Shown here piece by piece: positions 2,018 to 47,844 of a stretch of DNA of 64,000 nucleotides (position 1 is its first letter; every line of letters starts with the position of its first letter). Under the pieces are notes generated by a model. It was not told the origin of the DNA. It saw nothing but the letters and a program-made list of their open reading frames with translations, and made no database searches. The stretch covers positions 62,001 through 126,000 of the forward strand of contig NZ_CP043420.1 of assembly GCF_008247605.1 (NCBI RefSeq), given 5' to 3'. A program made the position numbers and the translations under genes. This stretch comes from Kushneria phosphatilytica (GTDB lineage Bacteria; Pseudomonadota; Gammaproteobacteria; Pseudomonadales; Halomonadaceae).

Positions 2018-2896
2018 TCAGCCGCGGTTTTTCAGGTAGTGATAGATGATCGAGATATCGGCGTCACCATGGCCGGCATCGACGGCCTTCGACCAGGTCT
2101 CGCTGATGCGTCTGAGCGCAGGCATGTCGAGATCGCCGGCTGCTTCCAGGGCCAGTCGGGCGTCCTTGAGGCCCCACTCCAGCGCCATCTGAGCGTCGAA
2201 ATTGCCGCTGTCGATCATGCCCAGCTTGACCTTCACGTAGGGTGCAGCCAGCGGCCCGCCGTCCAGGGTGTTCCAGAAATCATCGATGGAGAAGCCGAGC
2301 TGCTCGGCGAGCTGCGCGGTTTCGGCCACGCCTTCCATCATGTGGATCAGCCAGGCGTTGACGACCAGCTTCATGCGTGAGCCGGCACCGGCCTGACCCT
2401 GCCATTTGACGGCCTTGCTGATGGCTTCGAATACCGGTTCGATGCCGGGTGCAGCGTCGCGATCACCGCTGGCCAGCACCACCACCTGGCCCTGTTCGGC
2501 CGGTGCCTTGGTGCCCGACACGGGGGCATCAATGAACACTACATCCGGGCGCTTATCCTTGACCCGGCGAATCAGCTGTTCGGTGGGCTCAACGCCGATG
2601 GTGCCCATCTGGGCGACCACGCCCTGCTGTTTCAGACCCTCCAGGGCGCCGTTATCGCCCAGCAGCACTTCTTCAGTGGTAGGCGCGTCGGGGACCATGG
2701 TGATCACCACATCAGCGCTCTCAGCCGCTTCACGGGGGCTGTTGCAGACGGTGGCGCCGTTGCGCCCGAGGTTCTCCGCCTTGCTGCGGGTGCGATTCCA
2801 GACGCGAGTGGGCAGGCCGGCACTGATCAGGTTGGCAGCAAAGGCGTAGCCCATGGCGCCCAGGCCCAGTACGGCCACGGTGGGTTGTGTACTCAT
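2018..2896 (-). CDS. NAD(P)-dependent beta-hydroxyacid dehydrogenase (GarR/HIBADH family)
   Basis: A 292-residue protein of the 3-hydroxyisobutyrate dehydrogenase family, which oxidises or reduces short beta-hydroxy acids such as tartronate semialdehyde or 3-hydroxyisobutyrate with NAD(P). It has the Rossmann motif GLGAMG (11-16), the substrate motif DAPVSG (123-128) with Thr where Gly is usual next, and the catalytic Lys176 with Asn180 in G-x3-K-x3-N. The start at 2896 is chosen because GAGGAG lies 6-7 nt upstream and the conserved Rossmann strand begins directly afterwards; the frame stays open upstream to about 3067 without motifs. It is followed upstream on the same strand by an NhaC antiporter gene 184 bp away. 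The exact substrate is unknown. Confidence 0.88.
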   Translation of the reverse strand: MSTQPTVAVLGLGAMGYAFAANLISAGLPTRVWNRTRSKAENLGRNGATVCNSPREAAESADVVITMVPDAPTTEEVLLGDNGALEGLKQQGVVAQMGTIGVEPTEQLIRRVKDKRPDVVFIDAPVSGTKAPAEQGQVVVLASGDRDAAPGIEPVFEAISKAVKWQGQAGAGSRMKLVVNAWLIHMMEGVAETAQLAEQLGFSIDDFWNTLDGGPLAAPYVKVKLGMIDSGNFDAQMALEWGLKDARLALEAAGDLDMPALRRISETWSKAVDAGHGDADISIIYHYLKNRG

Positions 2897-3080
2897 GAAC
2901 TCCTCTCGGTAACGGTTCTCTCGCCGAACAGTCTGGCCCGCTCGGGGCAATTCGGCCAGTCCGGACAGAAAGGAGGGAGACATGATGATCATTGCAGCGG
3001 GGGCAGGCGGAGGCCTTGTGCGCACACTGCATGGCGAGGCCCGGCCTTTGGCCGCAGCCCCGCTCAAGGGTGGGGCTGCG

Positions 3081-40638: not shown

Positions 40639-41676
40639 TTGTCCATTGATTTTACCGCGTTTCCCCTGGCGGTCACGCTGGGGCTGTTTGCCGTTTGTGC
40701 GGTCGTCATCGGTACCATTGGTACCTGGTTGACCGGGGTCGTAGACCGGCTGGCCGACCGAACCGGACTGGGCGAGGCCATTGCCGGCTCGGTCATGCTG
40801 GGTGCCGTGACGTCACTGGCCGGCATCATGGTGTCGATTTCTGCTGCCGCCCGCGATCAACCGGGCCTGGCGATGAGCAACGCCCTGGGCGGCATTGCGG
40901 TACAAACCGCTTTTCTGGCACTGGCGGATATTACCTACCGACGGGCCAATCTCGAGCACGCTGCGCCCTCGATCGGCAATCTGATGCAGAGCGCACTGCT
41001 GATCTGTCTGCTCTCGCTGTTGCTGATCGGCGCCTGGACACCGCCCTTTACCCTATATGGCATTCATCCGGTGACACCGTTGCTGCTGGGTGGCTATCTC
41101 TATGGCCTGGTCAAGGTGCGGGGGGCCCAGAATGATCCCATGTGGCGTCCGAAAAAGACCTTCGAGACCTTCGAGGATGTCCCCGCGGAGGATGACGGCA
41201 AGCGCAGTCTGACGTCGCTGTGGATTCGGTTTCTGCTGCTGGCAGCAGTGCTCGGCCTCACCGGCCTAGTGCTTGAGCGGGTTGCCTCGGCGCTCACCCA
41301 GCAGACCGGGCTTTCTGCCACAGCGGTCGGTGCGCTGCTGACGGCGGTGGCGACCTCGCTGCCGGAGCTGGTGACCTCGATTGCGGCAGTCCGCCGGGGG
41401 GCACTGACACTGGCGATCAGTGGCATTATCGGTGGCAATGCCTTCGATACCCTGTTCGCGGCGACGTCCGATATCGCCTATCGCAAGGGGTCGATCTATC
41501 ACGCCATGCCGGACTCGATCCTGCTGTGGACGGCCATCACCCTGCTGATGACCGGCATCCTGCTGATGGGACTGATCCGCCGCGAACGGCATAACTGGGG
41601 CGGTATCGGCTTCGAGAGTGTCATTGTGCTGGTGCTTTATGGACTGGGCGCCGCCCTGACGCTGGTTCGTCCGTAA
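40639..41676 (+). CDS. sodium/calcium exchanger family (CaCA) membrane protein
   Basis: A 345-residue inner-membrane protein with about ten segments in two halves, of the YrbG-like CaCA family that exchanges Ca2+ (or K+) with Na+ or H+. The second half has the alpha-repeat motif TSLPELVTS and GNAFDT. In the first half the matching place reads VTSLAGIMVS, so the ion-binding Pro-Glu is lost there. The start is taken at TTG 40639 because CCGGAGG lies 5 nt upstream; TTG 40621 is also in frame but has no site. It stands between an OYE terminator and a convergent permease. Confidence 0.8.
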   Translation: MSIDFTAFPLAVTLGLFAVCAVVIGTIGTWLTGVVDRLADRTGLGEAIAGSVMLGAVTSLAGIMVSISAAARDQPGLAMSNALGGIAVQTAFLALADITYRRANLEHAAPSIGNLMQSALLICLLSLLLIGAWTPPFTLYGIHPVTPLLLGGYLYGLVKVRGAQNDPMWRPKKTFETFEDVPAEDDGKRSLTSLWIRFLLLAAVLGLTGLVLERVASALTQQTGLSATAVGALLTAVATSLPELVTSIAAVRRGALTLAISGIIGGNAFDTLFAATSDIAYRKGSIYHAMPDSILLWTAITLLMTGILLMGLIRRERHNWGGIGFESVIVLVLYGLGAALTLVRP

Positions 41677-41759
41677 GCGCGTGGGCTCCGGGCAGGCTTT
41701 TACCTGGCGCAGGGTTCAGCAACACCCGACAACAGCCCCCGGAGATTCAGGAAGGTCCT

Positions 41760-41784
41760 GCCGGGAACCTGTAATGCTCCCGGC
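41760..41784. terminator. hairpin between convergent genes
   Basis: A 7-bp stem GCCGGGA/TCCCGGC with an 11-nt loop lies between the exchanger gene (+) and the permease gene (-) and is followed by GTTAAT on the plus strand. Confidence 0.5.
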
Positions 41785-41815
41785 GTTAATGGAGTCTGAT
41801 ACCCGGTTCAGGCTT

Positions 41816-42853
41816 TCATGATCGCGTAGCGGGCTCGGCTACTGCACTGTCATCCAGCATGGGCTCATCTTCGAACTCCTGCTGCGGGTCGATACCCCGC
41901 TTCATCTGCCAGCGATAGATCAGTAGTGCCAGCACCGGGGTGAGAATGGCGGTCGTGACCGTGGAACCGGCTACCTGTGCCGTGGCCGTCGCCTCGATGG
42001 CCTTGTAGGCAGGATCGGCTGCTGCGACGACTGCGGGTGTGGCTACCGCTGCACCAGCCGTGGAGGATTCACAGGCGCCCGAAATGATATTGCGCCGATA
42101 GTGCGGCCGCCGGCGGATACGGTGCACCAGCGCAAGTAGCAGCATGGCGCCGCCGCCGGATACCACCAGCGTCAGCAGCCCCAGCAGCACGCCCGGCAGC
42201 CCCGCTTCGATCAGGGTTTTGAAATCGATACCGGCCCCGAGCGGGAAGGCGAAGAAAGGAATCAGAATGCGCTGACCGGGGGCCAGGAAACGGCGCAGAT
42301 TCTCATCCAGATTGCCGAGGATAAAGCCCAGCAGTACCGGCGCGACCACGCCGATGAAGGTCAACAGTGGAATCGAGGCCAGCCCGGCGGCCCCCAGCAC
42401 CAGCAGGGTGAGAAAGGGACCATCATTGAGCGAGATCACCGAGACGGCGCCGGTGTCGGTCTTGTTGCCGAACTGTTCGGTCAGGGCCACATACATGCCG
42501 CTGTTGGAGTTGGTCATGGCTGCCACGATGGCCAGTGGCGACAGTGCCAGCAGGGTGCCCGAAGGCATCAGGAAGGCGGCAATCAGCGCCACGATCACCC
42601 CGGCCAACAGTTTGCCGATCAGAATGGCGAAGCCCTTTTCGGCGATCGGGCCGGTGGCCCGGATAGGAATCTGGGCGCCCATGCAGAACAGGAAGGCACC
42701 AATGACCGGCAGGGCTCCCTCCTTGAACAGGGCCTGGGTAAAACCACCGATCTCGAGCAGACCGGGAAGAAAGGTATTGACGGTAGCGCCCAGCAGCAGC
42801 GGAATGACCATGATCCCGCCGGGGACCTTTTCGATTGCGCCGAGAATGTTCAT
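41816..42853 (-). CDS. KdgT-like acid-sugar permease
   Basis: A 345-residue membrane protein of the 2-keto-3-deoxygluconate permease family with about ten segments. The family pattern is clear in IEKVPGGIMVIPLLLGATVNTF at the N-terminus and in GFILGNLDENLRRFL in the middle. Its neighbours are a dehydrogenase, an OtnC-like decarboxylase, an OtnK-like kinase and a DeoR regulator on the same strand, so it probably imports the four-carbon (or related) acid sugar that they degrade, coupled to H+ or Na+. The start at 42853 has a GAGG 6-7 nt upstream; the longer open frame to 42910 has no family match. Confidence 0.85.
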   Translation of the reverse strand: MNILGAIEKVPGGIMVIPLLLGATVNTFLPGLLEIGGFTQALFKEGALPVIGAFLFCMGAQIPIRATGPIAEKGFAILIGKLLAGVIVALIAAFLMPSGTLLALSPLAIVAAMTNSNSGMYVALTEQFGNKTDTGAVSVISLNDGPFLTLLVLGAAGLASIPLLTFIGVVAPVLLGFILGNLDENLRRFLAPGQRILIPFFAFPLGAGIDFKTLIEAGLPGVLLGLLTLVVSGGGAMLLLALVHRIRRRPHYRRNIISGACESSTAGAAVATPAVVAAADPAYKAIEATATAQVAGSTVTTAILTPVLALLIYRWQMKRGIDPQQEFEDEPMLDDSAVAEPATRS

Positions 42854-43006
42854 GGCGGACCTCGGGTTGTAGTGAGGCGAAAAATGCCGAATGAACCGAG
42901 CCACGGGCACAGCTTCCCCGGGGCCACGGAAAATGTCTTTTCCGGACCTGTGGTCTGTCGGTTCACCATTGGGTAGCCGGCCCGTGCAGGCGCGCCGGCG
43001 GATGGG

Positions 43007-43939
43007 TCAGGTGGACTGACGCTTTTTCAGAGCGGCCAGAGTGACCAGGTAGCGGTCGCGCCAGGCCATGCGCTCATCGCGCTGGTCGGCGGGCAGTGTT
43101 TCGCGCCGCGCCTGTTCGAGCTGGTCCAGCAGCTGTTCGCTATAGCCATGACGGGGGCGAGCGGAATCGGCGATCTGCTGATACATCGGCCCGAGTCGGG
43201 TCATATAGTCGCGTACACCTTCCGGCGCATTGAGATCGATGGTCTCGATCGGGCCCATGAAGAACCAGCGTGCGCCCAGGCCATCGCTGACCACCCGGTC
43301 GAGGTCATCGACGCTGAGATAGCCATCCTCGATCAGATTGAAGGCTTCATTGAGCAGCGCGCCCTGCAGGCGATTGACGGCAAATCCCGGAATCTCGCCG
43401 CCGAGGGTGATTGGTGACTGACCAATGTCTGCCATCAGTTGCCGGGTACGCTGGAGTACCGCATCAGCAGTCCAGGGTGCGGGAATCAGTTCGACCAGCG
43501 GGATCAGGGCCGGCGGATTGACCGGATGTGCGACCAGGCAGCGTTCACGGTGGGTGAGGGTCTCGGTGAAATCCGAGGCCGGGATGCCCGAAGTTGAACT
43601 GGCCAGCGTGATTTCCGGGGCGGCCAGCTCATCGAGTTGAGCAAACAGCGTCTGCTTGAGTTCCACCCTTTCGGGGATATTCTCCTGGACGTGAATGGCG
43701 CCCTCGAGTGCCTGCGCCAGGTCGCTGCTGGTCCGTACCCGGTCCAGCACGCGCTGCGGTGGCTCGTCGAGCAGCTCATTGGCGGCCAGCTCTTCGAGGG
43801 TCTGTCTGATCAGCTCGCGGGCCTGGGGCAGCACTTCGGCCTGGTTATCGAACAGCACCACATCGTGGCCGCCGCGGGCGAAAACCACCGACCAGCTGCG
43901 CCCGATCAGGCCTGATCCGATAATGGCAACATGACTCAT
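43007..43939 (-). CDS. 3-hydroxyacyl-CoA dehydrogenase-fold enzyme, L-gulonate 3-dehydrogenase (lambda-crystallin)-like
   Basis: A 310-residue NAD-dependent dehydrogenase with Rossmann motif GSGLIG (8-13), SSTSG (114-118), the catalytic His138 in AHPVNPP and Glu150. The C-terminal domain contains GLGARWFFMGPIETIDLNA, which resembles lambda-crystallin/L-gulonate 3-dehydrogenase (CRYL1) rather than fatty-acid HADs; L-carnitine dehydrogenase is another relative. Family members oxidise the C3 hydroxyl of hydroxy acids. It is encoded with an OtnK kinase and OtnC decarboxylase, where oxidation of an acid sugar at C3 would give their 3-oxo substrate directly. The substrate is inferred, not shown. 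Confidence 0.8.
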   Translation of the reverse strand: MSHVAIIGSGLIGRSWSVVFARGGHDVVLFDNQAEVLPQARELIRQTLEELAANELLDEPPQRVLDRVRTSSDLAQALEGAIHVQENIPERVELKQTLFAQLDELAAPEITLASSTSGIPASDFTETLTHRERCLVAHPVNPPALIPLVELIPAPWTADAVLQRTRQLMADIGQSPITLGGEIPGFAVNRLQGALLNEAFNLIEDGYLSVDDLDRVVSDGLGARWFFMGPIETIDLNAPEGVRDYMTRLGPMYQQIADSARPRHGYSEQLLDQLEQARRETLPADQRDERMAWRDRYLVTLAALKKRQST

Positions 43940-44009
43940 CTTCTACCTCCTGGTTGACGGTGCGCGAACGCACCGGGCCGATCCCTGTGCCGGCCAGTGA
44001 TATGGGCGC

Positions 44010-44654
44010 TCAGCTCTCCCACCGGGCGCCGTGGTGTTCGCAGAGTTCGCCGATCTGATCGGCATCAAGGGTGCGATATTCGTGGCCATGCAGTAGCAGA
44101 AAGAGTTTGGCGGTCTCTTCCAGCTCTTCGGCGGCGCTGACGGTCGCGTCGAGATCCCGCCCGGTGACGATCGGGCCGTGATTGGCCAGCATCAGTGCGC
44201 TGTAGTGCGGTGCCAGCCGGGCCACATCGTCGCCGAGTCGTTCGTCCCCCGGGCGGCGATAGGGCACCAGAGGCAGCCGGCCGATGCGCATGACGAAGTA
44301 GGGGGTGATCGGTGGCAGCACACTCGCTTCGTCGACGTTTTTCAGACATGACACGGCGCTGGAATAGCTCGAGTGCAGATGAACGATCGCCTGCGCCTCG
44401 GGGCGATTCTTGTAGTAGGCGAGGTGAAAGAAGTACTCCTTGCTGGGCTTGCTGCCGGAGAGAACATTGCCTTCCCAGTCGAGCCTGGAGATCTCGTCGG
44501 CGTTGAGTTCGCCCATGCAGGAGTTGGTGGGTGTGGTCAGCCAGCCATCGTCCAGCCGCACACTGAGATTGCCACTGGTACCGGGACTGAGGCCGCGGTC
44601 ATAGAGTCGCTTGCCGAGCGTGACCAGACGCTGGCGCAGGGTGTGTTCATTCAT
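44010..44654 (-). CDS. otnC: OtnC-type 3-oxo-tetronate 4-phosphate decarboxylase (class II aldolase family)
   Basis: A 214-residue zinc-dependent class II aldolase/decarboxylase. The phosphate-binding GNLSVRL (28-34), the catalytic Glu73 in SKEYFFH and zinc-binding His92, His94 (VHLHSS) and His159 (ANHGP) are all present. OtnC converts 3-oxo-tetronate 4-phosphate to dihydroxyacetone phosphate and CO2; close relatives act on fuculose or ribulose phosphates, but the OtnK gene next door supports the OtnC role. Its start overlaps the end of otnK by 8 nt, so both are translationally coupled. Confidence 0.85.
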   Translation of the reverse strand: MNEHTLRQRLVTLGKRLYDRGLSPGTSGNLSVRLDDGWLTTPTNSCMGELNADEISRLDWEGNVLSGSKPSKEYFFHLAYYKNRPEAQAIVHLHSSYSSAVSCLKNVDEASVLPPITPYFVMRIGRLPLVPYRRPGDERLGDDVARLAPHYSALMLANHGPIVTGRDLDATVSAAEELEETAKLFLLLHGHEYRTLDADQIGELCEHHGARWES

Positions 44655-45897
44655 CGATAACCTCCCAGGCGCGGGTAAACATGTCGGGAGCGCCGAAGTT
44701 GCCGGATTTCAGCGCCAGATGCAGGGGACCATGCACTGATTCGGTCCAGGTCCAGGGAACGCCGGGGTCGATTTCCGGGCCGATGCGCAGACTCTCGATG
44801 CCCAGCGCACCGACGATGGCGCCTGCCGTTTCACCTCCGGCCACAATCAGACGACCGATGTCCCGGACGATCAGCCGTCTGGCGAGTTCGGCCAGAGCGC
44901 GTTCGACCAGCGCGCCAGCGGCTTCAACACCCAGCTGCTGCTGAGCCTCGCGCACCACTTCGGGGCGGGTGTCGCTGTGAATCAGCAGCGGCTTGCCCAG
45001 CTGTGGCAGGGCCCACTGCTCGATCGCATCGAGTGTGGCGTCAAACTCATGATGCAGTTCGAGCGGTGTCAGTGCCCGGCTTGGCATGTGGGCGCTGGCA
45101 TGGTCGATCTGTTCGCGGGTCCGTTTCGAGGCACTGCCCGCCAGAATCAGCGCGCCACCTGCAGGGGGCGGCAGTGCGGCAGCCTGTCCGCTGGGTGATG
45201 AGTAGAGTGCGCCCAGTCCGAGTGCCAGTCCGGAACCCCCGGTAACCAGCGGCATGTCGCGACTGGCCAGCGCTATGGTGGTCAGATGCGCATCGCGCAG
45301 GGTATCGGTCACGATCAATCGATACCCTTCCGAACGCAGCGCTTCGAGCTGGCGGCGGGCAGCTTCCTCGCCCCGTTCAATGACATCGGCCGGCAGCAGA
45401 CCAACACGTTGTTCGCTCTGGGTATCGAGCCAGCGCACGAGATTGGCATCCGTCATCGGATTGAGCGGGTGGTGCTCCATGCCGCTCTCGTTGAGCAGAC
45501 TGCCGCCCACGAACAGATGGCCCTGATAGACGGTGCGACCGGTGGCCGGGAAGGCCGGGCAGAACAGGGTGCTGTCACAGTCGAGCGCCCCCATCAGCGC
45601 TTCTGCCACCGGGCCGATGTTGCCCTGTGGGGTGGAGTCGAAGGTTGAGCAGTACTTGAAATAGAACTTTTCGCAGCCTTGCGTCTGTAGCCATGTCAGC
45701 GCTTCAAGCGACTGGCGTACCGCGTCGGCGGCCGGAATGCTGCGCGACTTCAACGCCACCACAATGGCATCGACGTCTTCGGGGGCTGTGTCCGGTATCC
45801 CGATGGTCTGGACGGTACGAAAGCCGCTTTTGACCAGGTTGTTGGCCAGGTCCGTGCCGCCGGTGAAATCGTCGGCAATACATCCGATCAGGGCCAT
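44647..45897 (-). CDS. otnK: OtnK-type four-carbon acid sugar kinase (former DUF1537)
   Basis: A 416-residue kinase of the DUF1537/OtnK family, which phosphorylates the 4-OH of 3-oxo-tetronate in threonate and erythronate breakdown. The N-terminal substrate domain has IADDFTGGTDLANNL (7-21) and FKYCSTFDSTPQGNIGP; the C-terminal ATP domain has VAGGETAGAIVGALG and SGNFG. It begins with a very strong ribosome binding site (AAGGAGGT, 4-nt gap) and overlaps the preceding deoR by 10 nt, and overlaps otnC by 8 nt at its end. A related D-threonate kinase (DtnK) works with PdxA2, which is not present here. Confidence 0.88.
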   Translation of the reverse strand: MALIGCIADDFTGGTDLANNLVKSGFRTVQTIGIPDTAPEDVDAIVVALKSRSIPAADAVRQSLEALTWLQTQGCEKFYFKYCSTFDSTPQGNIGPVAEALMGALDCDSTLFCPAFPATGRTVYQGHLFVGGSLLNESGMEHHPLNPMTDANLVRWLDTQSEQRVGLLPADVIERGEEAARRQLEALRSEGYRLIVTDTLRDAHLTTIALASRDMPLVTGGSGLALGLGALYSSPSGQAAALPPPAGGALILAGSASKRTREQIDHASAHMPSRALTPLELHHEFDATLDAIEQWALPQLGKPLLIHSDTRPEVVREAQQQLGVEAAGALVERALAELARRLIVRDIGRLIVAGGETAGAIVGALGIESLRIGPEIDPGVPWTWTESVHGPLHLALKSGNFGAPDMFTRAWEVIDE

Positions 45898-46700
45898 GGG
45901 ACCTCCTTCGGCTCATCGGTCATCTGTGGGGCGGTAATCGGCACCGTTTCGAGTGCGATGTCGCGCTCGACGATGGCTTCGCGGTCGAAAGCGGCCAGGC
46001 CGTCGTCGGTGATGATCAGATCGACATCCTCCAGCGCACAGGCACGGAACATGCCGAAACGGCCGTATTTGGTGCTGTCGGCCACCAGCACGCTTTTGGA
46101 AGCGATCTGTAACAGCTGCTGCTTGATCAGAATCTTTGACTCATCCGGCGTGGTGACGCCGCGCTCGAGATGCCAGGAGCTGCTGCTGAGGAAGGCGATG
46201 TCGACGTTGACCTGACGCAGAAATTCCACCACCGATGGGCCGACAGCCGAGTAATTCTCGTGGTTGACCCGACCCCCGGTATGGAAGAGGTCAATATGGG
46301 GGTACTGCGCCAGTAGCGCCGAGATATGGAAGTTGTTGGTGACGACCGACAGATCGTTGTGTTCGGTAAGCAGGCGGGCCATGGCGAAAGTGGTGGTGCC
46401 GGCATCAAGATAGATCGACATGCCATCGTGGATCATGGCTGCCGCTCGTTGGGCAATCGCTTCCTTGTGACCGATATGAGCGGATGCCTTCTCCTGCCAT
46501 GCAGGCTCATGCCTAAATCGGGCAGCCAGCCGCACGCCACCGGAGACGGAGAGCACTTGCCCTTCCTGTTCGAGCTGGGCGATATCGCGGCGCACCGTCA
46601 TGTGGGACACCCCGAGCAGCTCGGTCAGCTCGTTGATGGTCAGCACGGTCTGCTGATCAAGCAGTTCCAGCAGATAGTCGCGTCTTTGCGTGGGTATCAC
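45888..46700 (-). CDS. DeoR-family transcriptional regulator of the acid-sugar operon
   Basis: A 270-residue regulator with the N-terminal DeoR helix-turn-helix (about 5-55: RRDYLLELL..TVLTINELTELLGVSHMTVRRDIAQLE) and a sugar-phosphate binding domain of the RpiA-like type. That domain has AMIHDGMSIYLDAGTTTF as the phosphate-binding loop. DeoR proteins usually repress catabolic operons until a phosphorylated intermediate binds. Here it is the first gene of its own operon and probably acts on the two TTGATAA repeats in front of it. The substrate phosphate is unknown, but the OtnK product is the natural candidate. Confidence 0.88.
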   Translation of the reverse strand: MIPTQRRDYLLELLDQQTVLTINELTELLGVSHMTVRRDIAQLEQEGQVLSVSGGVRLAARFRHEPAWQEKASAHIGHKEAIAQRAAAMIHDGMSIYLDAGTTTFAMARLLTEHNDLSVVTNNFHISALLAQYPHIDLFHTGGRVNHENYSAVGPSVVEFLRQVNVDIAFLSSSSWHLERGVTTPDESKILIKQQLLQIASKSVLVADSTKYGRFGMFRACALEDVDLIITDDGLAAFDREAIVERDIALETVPITAPQMTDEPKEVPWP

Positions 46701-46715
46701 GATGGCTTCCCGACA

Positions 46716-46739
46716 TTGATAACACGGTAAATTTGATAA
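46716..46739. promoter_or_regulatory. candidate DeoR operator: two direct TTGATAA repeats
   Basis: TTGATAA occurs at 46716-46722 and 46733-46739, with a 17-bp period, 16 bp upstream of the deoR start at 46700 in an AT-rich stretch. Direct repeats of such a size fit DeoR-type operators. The rest of the 256-bp gap to the LysR gene (to 46956) is AT-rich and holds no supportable gene. Confidence 0.45.
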
Positions 46740-46956
46740 ATAACGTTAAAAATTCACGCTAATTACCATGTGAGCCATGGTTGATGGTCCGGCCGAGAAA
46801 GTCAAAGCAGTAGCCGTTAGCTTTTGGTATAAGGAGAAGTAGTAAAAATATCGGGTTTTTGCAGGAATGAGGGCAGATCAGGAAGGAGAAGGTTGGGGTT
46901 CCGCAATGATGTGGCAAGGTGTGAATTGATGTGAAGTTCGCCGTGCACAAGATGGT

Positions 46957-47844
46957 TTACAGGGTGGGTTCCGGTTGCTGACAGAATTCGAGAAAACGGG
47001 CCAGCAACGGACTGATGTACTTGTCGCGATGGGTGATCAGATGAAACTGACGGGGCATCGCCAGATCAATCCCGAGCTCCCTCAACCGGCCATCCGCCAG
47101 TGCATGGCGGGCTTCCAGTTCGGAGACACAGGTCAGCCCCATACCGGCGGCAGTCGCATTGATGATCGCTTCGGTCGCGTTGAGTTCGAGCGCGGTCTGC
47201 CAGTGCTCTAGCCGAGCAGCCAGAAAGTGCATGAACTGTTCCCGGGTGCCGGAACCGGGTTCGCGCAGCACCCACTGCTGATGTTCGAGGTCGGTCACTG
47301 TGGCAACACGTCCGACCAGCGGATGATCCGGAGCCGCCGCCACCAGCATACGATCGTGGCGCCAGGGTCGGGCCATCAGAGGGGCGTGATCGATGCGTCC
47401 CTCGACCATACCGATATCGAGTTCGAAGGCGTTGAGGGCCTCACCAATGGTGGCGCTGTTGACAATGGTGACCTGCTGATCGGTATGGCCGGTAAGACGG
47501 CGAAATCCCTGCAACAGCGCCGGGAGCAACTGGTGACCGATGGTATAGCTGGCACCGATGCGCAACTGACCGGACAGCTGCGTGTTGCGATCGAACAGTT
47601 GCTCAACGGTGGCGGCGCGGCCGAGTAGCTCATCGGCCAGTGGCAACAGCTGGCGCCCCAGATCGTTGATGAACAGCCGGTTGTGGTGGCGGTCGAATAC
47701 CCGGTGGCCGTAGCGCTTCTCGAGTTCGGCCAGGGCTGCGCTCACCGCCGGTTTGGTCAGATGAAGGGATTGCGCGGCAGCGGTCAGCGAGCCCTCGTGC
47801 ACAATGGTCACAAAGACACGCAGCTGGCGCAGGGTAATCGCCAT
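46957..47844 (-). CDS. LysR-family regulator, probably of sulfite oxidation/export
   Basis: A 295-residue LysR-type regulator. The N-terminal winged helix-turn-helix (about 3-62: LRQLRVFVTIVHEGSLTAAAQSLHLTKPAVSAALAELE) resembles the CysB/YeiE subgroup; residues from about 90 form the effector-binding domain. ATG 47844 is chosen for the standard MAITLRQLRVF N-terminus; an upstream open frame lacks similarity. It is the third gene, 4 bp after a sulfite-oxidase-like gene, which follows a TDT transporter gene, and YeiE-type regulators respond to sulfite. The effector is inferred, not shown. Confidence 0.85.
   Translation of the reverse strand: MAITLRQLRVFVTIVHEGSLTAAAQSLHLTKPAVSAALAELEKRYGHRVFDRHHNRLFINDLGRQLLPLADELLGRAATVEQLFDRNTQLSGQLRIGASYTIGHQLLPALLQGFRRLTGHTDQQVTIVNSATIGEALNAFELDIGMVEGRIDHAPLMARPWRHDRMLVAAAPDHPLVGRVATVTDLEHQQWVLREPGSGTREQFMHFLAARLEHWQTALELNATEAIINATAAGMGLTCVSELEARHALADGRLRELGIDLAMPRQFHLITHRDKYISPLLARFLEFCQQPEPTL

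Follow-up and report, generated by a model that had tools for sequence, protein, structure and literature searches.

A five-gene operon in the salt-loving bacterium Kushneria phosphatilytica, which lies within a 64,000-nucleotide stretch of the chromosome (the window; positions 62001-126000 of C1, a single 3.62-Mb contig), is considered fairly probable to degrade a tetronate, most likely L-threonate, by way of C3 oxidation by a dehydrogenase (DH), followed by the action of OtnK and OtnC, with the isomerase OtnI being kept in the genome for D-erythronate. The operon itself is real, conserved and rare, and its front enzyme is unlike those of the described pathways that were found. In the proposed route, the KdgT-type carrier would import the four-carbon sugar acid, DH would use NAD+ to oxidize the C3 hydroxyl and so form 3-oxo-tetronate in a single step, OtnK would phosphorylate this compound at C4, and OtnC would decarboxylate the OtnK product to dihydroxyacetone phosphate (DHAP), all under the presumed control of the DeoR protein encoded in the same unit. 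D-erythronate would be handled by the distant DenD and OtnI proteins, with GntP as carrier and GntR as regulator, and this route would use the OtnK and OtnC of the window; we infer this shared use by two loci, as well as the regulation. Amongst the candidate substrates L-threonate would come first and L-erythronate second. L-threonate is favoured because relatives of the L-gulonate 3-dehydrogenase type act on L-configured C3 hydroxyls, and because L-threonate becomes a 3-oxo-tetronate when it is oxidized at C3; an L-configured C3 hydroxyl is present in L-threonate and L-erythronate and not in D-erythronate.

The operon and its proteins

The five open reading frames (ORFs) were confirmed on the minus strand in the order deoR, otnK, otnC, DH and kdgT, and are given here with the region upstream of them (cut-offs in brackets).

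45888-46700, minus strand: DeoR-family regulator, nearest YgbI; 270 amino acids; NF040890 at 268 bits, below the cut-off (400); PF00455 and PF08220
44647-45897, minus strand: OtnK, 3-oxo-tetronate kinase (DUF1537 family); 416 amino acids; NF043035 at 563 bits (350)
44010-44654, minus strand: OtnC; 214 amino acids; NF043034 at 304 bits (250); PF00596
43007-43939, minus strand: DH, of the 3HCDH/lambda-crystallin (L-gulonate 3-dehydrogenase-like) group, predicted to carry out tetronate C3 oxidation; 310 amino acids; NF004783 at 428 bits (347)
41816-42910, minus strand: KdgT-family permease (ORF; ATG at 42853 preferred, giving 41816-42853); PF03812 at 359 bits (25)
46701-46900, minus strand: A+T-richer leader 5' of deoR, presumed from GC content to be the promoter/operator region

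A reading made from the sequence alone had described these genes as a tight unit with overlaps of 8-10 nt, and this description holds: deoR and otnK overlap by 10 nt and otnK and otnC by 8 nt, with gaps of 70 nt between otnC and DH and of approximately 150 nt between DH and kdgT. The GC content is 0.548 in 46000-46999 compared with 0.63 within the operon, and a promoter scan of 41500-47200 returned one sigma-70-like match (46935-46906), which is the number expected by chance.

The same reading had likened DH to lambda-crystallin/L-gulonate 3-dehydrogenase, and rightly so. The nearest solved structures are those of rabbit lambda-crystallin (3ado, E 7.9e-71) and the human protein (3f3s, E 7e-67), with the next best at E 6e-37, and the alignment spans residues 4-307 of 310. 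Residues S117, H138, E150, N189 and D31 of DH align with 3ado, where we take their counterparts to be the catalytic Ser, His, Glu and Asn and the NAD-binding Asp. Amongst 98 of 99 aligned rows (one very long row, L060, was left out), these residues are identical in 97, 98, 98, 92 and 98 rows, respectively. All nine core members of the DH clade have I at position 231 and Y at 266, compared with F in 64 and W in 73 of 79 other rows; long branches make it uncertain where the animal proteins belong in the tree. The superfamily to which DH belongs oxidizes the beta (C3) hydroxyl, and the nearest characterized relative, L-gulonate 3-dehydrogenase, acts on a hexonate with an L-configured C3 hydroxyl. 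In four of six plasmid regions, relatives of DH (~50% identity) directly adjoin a gene for a ‘3-keto-5-aminohexanoate cleavage protein’, presumably a member of the beta-keto acid cleavage family; of the other two regions, one has a single cleavage gene ~5 kb from the DH relative and the last has none listed. Such neighbours are expected if the DH family makes 3-oxo acids. Taken together, these features favour a free hydroxy acid as the substrate and its C3 as the site of oxidation, and the C3 regiochemistry is suggested by homology and genomic context. Two close orthologues (P0001 and P0003) bear the UniRef name ‘L-gulonate 3-dehydrogenase’ and the NCBI name 3-hydroxyacyl-CoA dehydrogenase.

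OtnK carries both DUF1537 domains, PF07005 and PF17042, and passes the equivalog cut-off for 3-oxo-tetronate kinase by 213 bits, whilst OtnC is of the Aldolase_II type (PF00596) and passes the NF043034 equivalog cut-off by 54 bits. In whole-genome searches the window copies were the sole OtnK over the cut-off and the sole OtnC match. The permease falls below the kdgT equivalog TIGR00793 (264 bits against a cut-off of 453.8) and is a member of the Pfam family PF03812 nonetheless, a family that is named for a C6 acid. The DeoR protein is 90% and 94% identical to its counterparts in the two other five-gene operons described below, and its nearest named relative, YgbI, regulates the ygb cluster in E. 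coli. The combination with a KdgT-type carrier had been put forward as unusual, but it is not unique: at 0.63 Mb this genome encodes a KdgT paralogue, with 42-43% identity to the window protein, near a second DUF1537 protein that is fused to PdxA. This second acid-sugar locus (C1 ~625500-635300; L065 8553-18284) encodes a DeoR protein, a HIBADH-family dehydrogenase, the DUF1537-PdxA fusion kinase (779 amino acids), a LarC-like nickel-insertion protein, AIRC and NAD-synthase-like proteins (which we take to be LarB/LarE-like), a member of the LarA lactate-racemase family and the KdgT paralogue. Kinase/PdxA pairs occur in D-threonate pathways.

OtnI, DenD and LtnD in the genome

The sequence-only reading had held that no OtnI gene is present and that DH stands in place of LtnD/DenD plus OtnI. 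The first claim is correct for the window and wrong for the genome: the whole-genome search that had been advised located OtnI (403 bits; cut-off 325) and DenD (456 bits; cut-off 325), a first-step enzyme of the four-step tetronate pathway, at C1:1299454-1302110, ~1.2 Mb from the operon. The idea that the organism lacks both proteins was accordingly discarded. The OtnI protein falls below the cut-off for hydroxypyruvate isomerase (342 compared with 353 bits). The search found no LtnD over the cut-off anywhere in the genome (best 139 against 350 bits); a HIBADH-family dehydrogenase in the window (2018-3067, minus strand) scores 130 bits against the same cut-off and hence is not LtnD. The D-erythronate pathway is therefore complete at the genome level, with DenD, OtnI, OtnK and OtnC all encoded, in two pieces: OtnK and OtnC do not adjoin the OtnI-DenD locus at 1.30 Mb, and the window operon does not have the canonical arrangement of LtnD, or DenD, with OtnI beside OtnK/OtnC. 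The remaining DenD and OtnI probably depend on the OtnK and OtnC of the window operon. Of the second claim there is left a replacement, perhaps, of LtnD and OtnI for one substrate, with DenD and OtnI remaining.

Comparison with relatives suggests how this arrangement arose. In two congeners (G001 and G003) and in Salinicola corii, the canonical cluster consists of GntP-DenD running one way and GntR-LtnD-OtnK-OtnC-OtnI running the opposite way, with LtnD at 451-454 bits (cut-off 350) in all three (451 in S. corii). At the same place, the window genome and Kushneria sinocarnis have GntP-DenD and, divergently, GntR-OtnI, with ltnD-otnK-otnC missing; the GntR of this locus aligns with that of the congeners, and OtnI comes directly after it. 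Between denD and otnI, no trace of ltnD, otnK or otnC was convincing (best tblastn E 0.9). The absence of a second OtnK or OtnC over the cut-off is genome-wide for the window genome and, for K. sinocarnis, refers to the loci. We infer that ltnD-otnK-otnC was lost in the Kushneria carriers of the operon, not gained in the congeners. The absence of ltnD alongside the presence of denD and otnI fits a DH that makes LtnD redundant but not DenD, and the retention of otnI is explained by the adjoining denD.

A DRL-type oxidoreductase gene with tctA and tctC also adjoins OtnI on the chromosome (L048 12190-16958, minus strand), and this DRL protein shares 45% identity with one encoded alongside Tct genes and OtnK/OtnC in a different genome from the family (L113). 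The DRL-Tct locus might be one more front end that depends on the window OtnK/OtnC.

Conservation and spread of the module

A survey of genomes for the five-gene order had been proposed, and the order does recur: the same arrangement is present in K. sinocarnis (G007) and S. corii (G012), at protein identities of 90-99% and 76-94%, respectively, and its repetition in two other genomes argues against chance. DH was found at ≥76% identity in three of 275 family genomes, the window genome included, and within the genus in two of 10; the remaining DH matches listed in the 275-genome search were ≤53% identical. A single-sequence scan of genome contigs gave six loci, and just the two close ones contained the operon. 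Amongst the 10 top-ranking DH homologues from beyond the window (P0001-P0010), six share a contig with an OtnK homologue that is 71-90% identical (contigs of 566358, 410792, 14460, 3271 and 51099 bp and a chromosome-sized one of 4332356 bp), and a listed OtnC homologue is also found on four of these (410792, 14460, 3271 and 51099 bp); a shared contig is here read from an equal size in bp, as a proxy, and the 3,271-bp contig would be nearly filled by three such genes. DH, OtnK and OtnC homologues thus stay together across 64-92% DH identity, and DH-OtnK-OtnC is a conserved module. On plasmids, DH retrieved 37 records, all <60% identical, and amongst the 60 of 259 OtnK plasmid records that were listed two held both DH and OtnK, ~264 kb and 39 kb apart. 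Gene presence was judged by tblastn, as antisense ORFs in GC-rich loci mask genes in simple ORF calling.

S. corii holds the five-gene operon in addition to a group of LtnD, OtnK, OtnC, OtnI, DenD and GntP, and this coexistence with a complete canonical set makes the five-gene unit look self-contained and not merely a split-off half. When a 19-kb stretch of S. corii was compared with the window, the match covered just the operon (41865-46770), at 81% nucleotide identity (76-89% by gene), compared with 69-76% for four genes of the denD/otnI locus, the two ranges overlapping at DH (76%) and gntP (76%). These values hint at horizontal transfer of the operon, and are short of proof. In K. sinocarnis, ~3.8 kb with no match in the window lies beside kdgT (L055 4725-8587), the flanks being otherwise collinear. 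The possibility that half of the canonical cluster of the genus had moved to form the operon was rejected, as the operon's OtnK and OtnC group with their counterparts in K. sinocarnis and S. corii, in clades separate from the canonical Kushneria/Salinicola copies. The window-type and canonical OtnC clades are sisters (support 99/87), and the OtnK clades fall in one weakly supported group; an old duplication of OtnK/OtnC is possible from these trees.

A further association of the same enzymes was found in a genome of the same phylum and another class (G556, alphaproteobacterium-like), where DH-GntR-OtnK-DctP-DctQ-DctM-OtnC all lie on one strand, with DH at 382 (cut-off 347), OtnK at 569 (350) and OtnC at 274 (250) bits. 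Its DH and OtnK are placed elsewhere in the trees than the window copies, and this DH-OtnK-TRAP-OtnC cluster is a separate, independent association. The sole OtnI match in this genome (L275 9362-10147) passes the cut-offs for both OtnI (403 against 325 bits) and hydroxypyruvate isomerase (398 against 353 bits), such that NF043033 alone cannot separate OtnI from Hyi. It adjoins a gene for tartronate-semialdehyde reductase (411 against 341 bits), near genes for formyl-CoA transferase and oxalyl-CoA decarboxylase, and is probably, judging by these scores and neighbours, a hydroxypyruvate isomerase, in which case G556 would be without a dedicated OtnI. The adjoining gene was considered as LtnD-like and set aside, since it scores 179 against 350 bits and passes the cut-offs for 2-hydroxy-3-oxopropionate (tartronate semialdehyde) reductase. 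The chemistry of the sequence-only reading is plausible, and its premise that OtnI is absent, wrong for the window genome, may hold for G556.

The wider context of OtnC was examined in 94 loci fetched from a class survey (12 of 369 genomes positive) and a phylum survey (76 of 398 positive), the window and S. corii five-gene places lying outside this set and the stretches covering mostly ~8 kb on each side of OtnC, some cut by contig ends. A window-type DH was found near OtnC in a single locus, that of G556, and a window-like KdgT in none. An OtnI match (≥100 bits) was present in 71 loci, amongst which hydroxypyruvate isomerases could be hidden, and missing in 23, so that OtnK/OtnC without OtnI is not remarkable in itself. 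A HIBADH match, from a remote proxy query for LtnD and hence a rough count, was present in 60 loci, and OtnI, HIBADH-like and DenD matches were all missing in 19. Around G556, OtnC was found in 223 of 391 genomes. Some OtnI-free OtnK/OtnC pairs have DRL and Tct, Iso_dh or GFO/IDH/MocA genes near them (eight proteins, five loci), and loci of this kind with varied neighbours include L113, L126, L152, L154 and L181. The OtnK/OtnC pair looks like a reusable module.

Known pathways, alternative explanations and significance

Four described systems can be set beside the operon. In the four-step pathway for L-threonate and D-erythronate, LtnD, OtnI, OtnK and OtnC are used (Zhang et al. 2016 as cited in PMC12540250), and DenD is the alternative to LtnD as first enzyme; the window OtnK and OtnC belong to the same curated families with the same predicted last two steps, and the regulator is YgbI-like, whereas the first enzyme is of the 3HCDH/lambda-crystallin group, the operon is without OtnI and the carrier is of the KdgT type. 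The same source describes a three-step, OtnI-free bypass that uses LtnD, 2-OtnK and an F_bP_aldolase-type 2-OtnC (Guo et al. 2024 as cited in PMC12540250). OtnI is avoided there, as is predicted for the window operon, but the bypass starts with LtnD and a 2-oxo product and ends with an F_bP_aldolase-type 2-OtnC, whereas the window has an Aldolase_II OtnC and predicted C3 oxidation. No F_bP_aldolase match is listed for the five operon proteins, the rest of the genome not having been searched for F_bP_aldolase. For deoxyribonate, a route has been proposed in which an aldonate is oxidized at C3 to form a beta-keto acid, a likeness to the window route, and this acid is then cleaved; it differs in the use of a short-chain dehydrogenase/reductase (SDR) enzyme and CoA-dependent cleavage, with no 3-oxo acid kinase (PMC6365646). 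Finally, the animal L-gulonate 3-dehydrogenase/lambda-crystallin (CRYL1, 3ado, 3f3s) shares full-length homology and catalytic residues with the window DH, which differs in lying in a bacterial kinase/decarboxylase operon, in its predicted C4 substrate and in that phosphorylation would precede decarboxylation. Amongst the literature matches listed, none concerned this DH with OtnK/OtnC, which is weak evidence of novelty.

Several observations weigh against L-threonate degradation through C3 oxidation. The name attached to NF004783 is ‘3-hydroxyacyl-CoA dehydrogenase’ (PRK06129), an annotation, and conservation of the catalytic residues is no proof that the substrate is a sugar acid. Of the 11 NF004783 members over the cut-off in 117 relatives, three lie with OtnK/OtnC and eight elsewhere; for four of the 10 top-ranking DH homologues (one of them on a contig of 1,301 bp) no listed OtnK matches the contig, and some Salinicola OtnK/OtnC homologues (66-73% identity) have contigs not matched by any of the 120 listed DH homologues. 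The window OtnK and OtnC sit on long tree stems (0.78 and 0.65 changes per site), so the substrate may have drifted. S. corii keeps LtnD, such that the argument for replacement rests on one Kushneria lineage. Lastly, in all three genomes with the five-gene order, OtnI is over its own cut-off and under that for hydroxypyruvate isomerase, so the operon may work together with OtnI in these carriers.

This last observation belongs to the main rival, a split canonical pathway in which DH would be a non-homologous replacement of LtnD that oxidizes C2, the 2-oxo product passing to the distant OtnI and on to OtnK/OtnC with no step skipped. The two Kushneria carriers that keep otnI in the absence of ltnD-otnK-otnC would fit such a route, but the adjoining denD accounts for that retention, the DH superfamily acts on the beta hydroxyl, none of the four DH-OtnK-OtnC loci examined has OtnI adjacent to it, and the one OtnI match of G556 resembles hydroxypyruvate isomerase; we regard a split pathway as unlikely. 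Also unlikely, and held with slightly less belief, is a different substrate, in which a longer or branched acid (e.g. L-gulonate or another aldonate) would undergo the same 3-oxidation, phosphorylation and decarboxylation, the specificity of OtnK/OtnC having shifted. The hexonate substrate of the nearest characterized DH relative, the C6 acid for which the KdgT family is named, the long OtnK/OtnC stems and the clade-specific residues at 231 and 266 all agree with this, but the tetronate equivalog cut-offs are exceeded by both OtnK and OtnC, and a C5 ketose phosphate would need further enzymes, none of which are in the operon, whereas DHAP would not. A third alternative is that DH, a dehydrogenase either unrelated to the pathway or broad in its action on 3-hydroxyacids (or acyl-CoA), is in the operon by chance, with OtnK/OtnC serving only the distant DenD-OtnI locus. 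This would suit its NCBIfam name, the presence in the window of the genome's only OtnK and OtnC over the cut-off and the location elsewhere of most DH-model members in the family, but is very improbable given the company that the three homologues keep, the coexistence of a canonical set with the operon in S. corii and the second, independent cluster in G556.

For tetronate degradation through C3 oxidation, a fuller account can be offered tentatively: the operon may be a true shortcut for L-threonate (or L-erythronate), reaching DHAP in three steps without OtnI, that has arisen at least twice (in the halophile module and in the alphaproteobacterial TRAP cluster), has moved between halophiles, and has let one Kushneria lineage lose ltnD-otnK-otnC, with OtnK/OtnC becoming a shared hub for several front ends. 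The analysis also cautions against inferring pathway gaps from one window, as the step that seemed to be missing stood elsewhere on the chromosome. If the account is true, it would give a function to a group of bacterial dehydrogenases now mostly named 3-hydroxyacyl-CoA dehydrogenase and would constitute a second chemical way round OtnI, and the Kushneria lineage, with ltnD missing and denD and otnI kept, would be a natural loss experiment that predicts substrate use.

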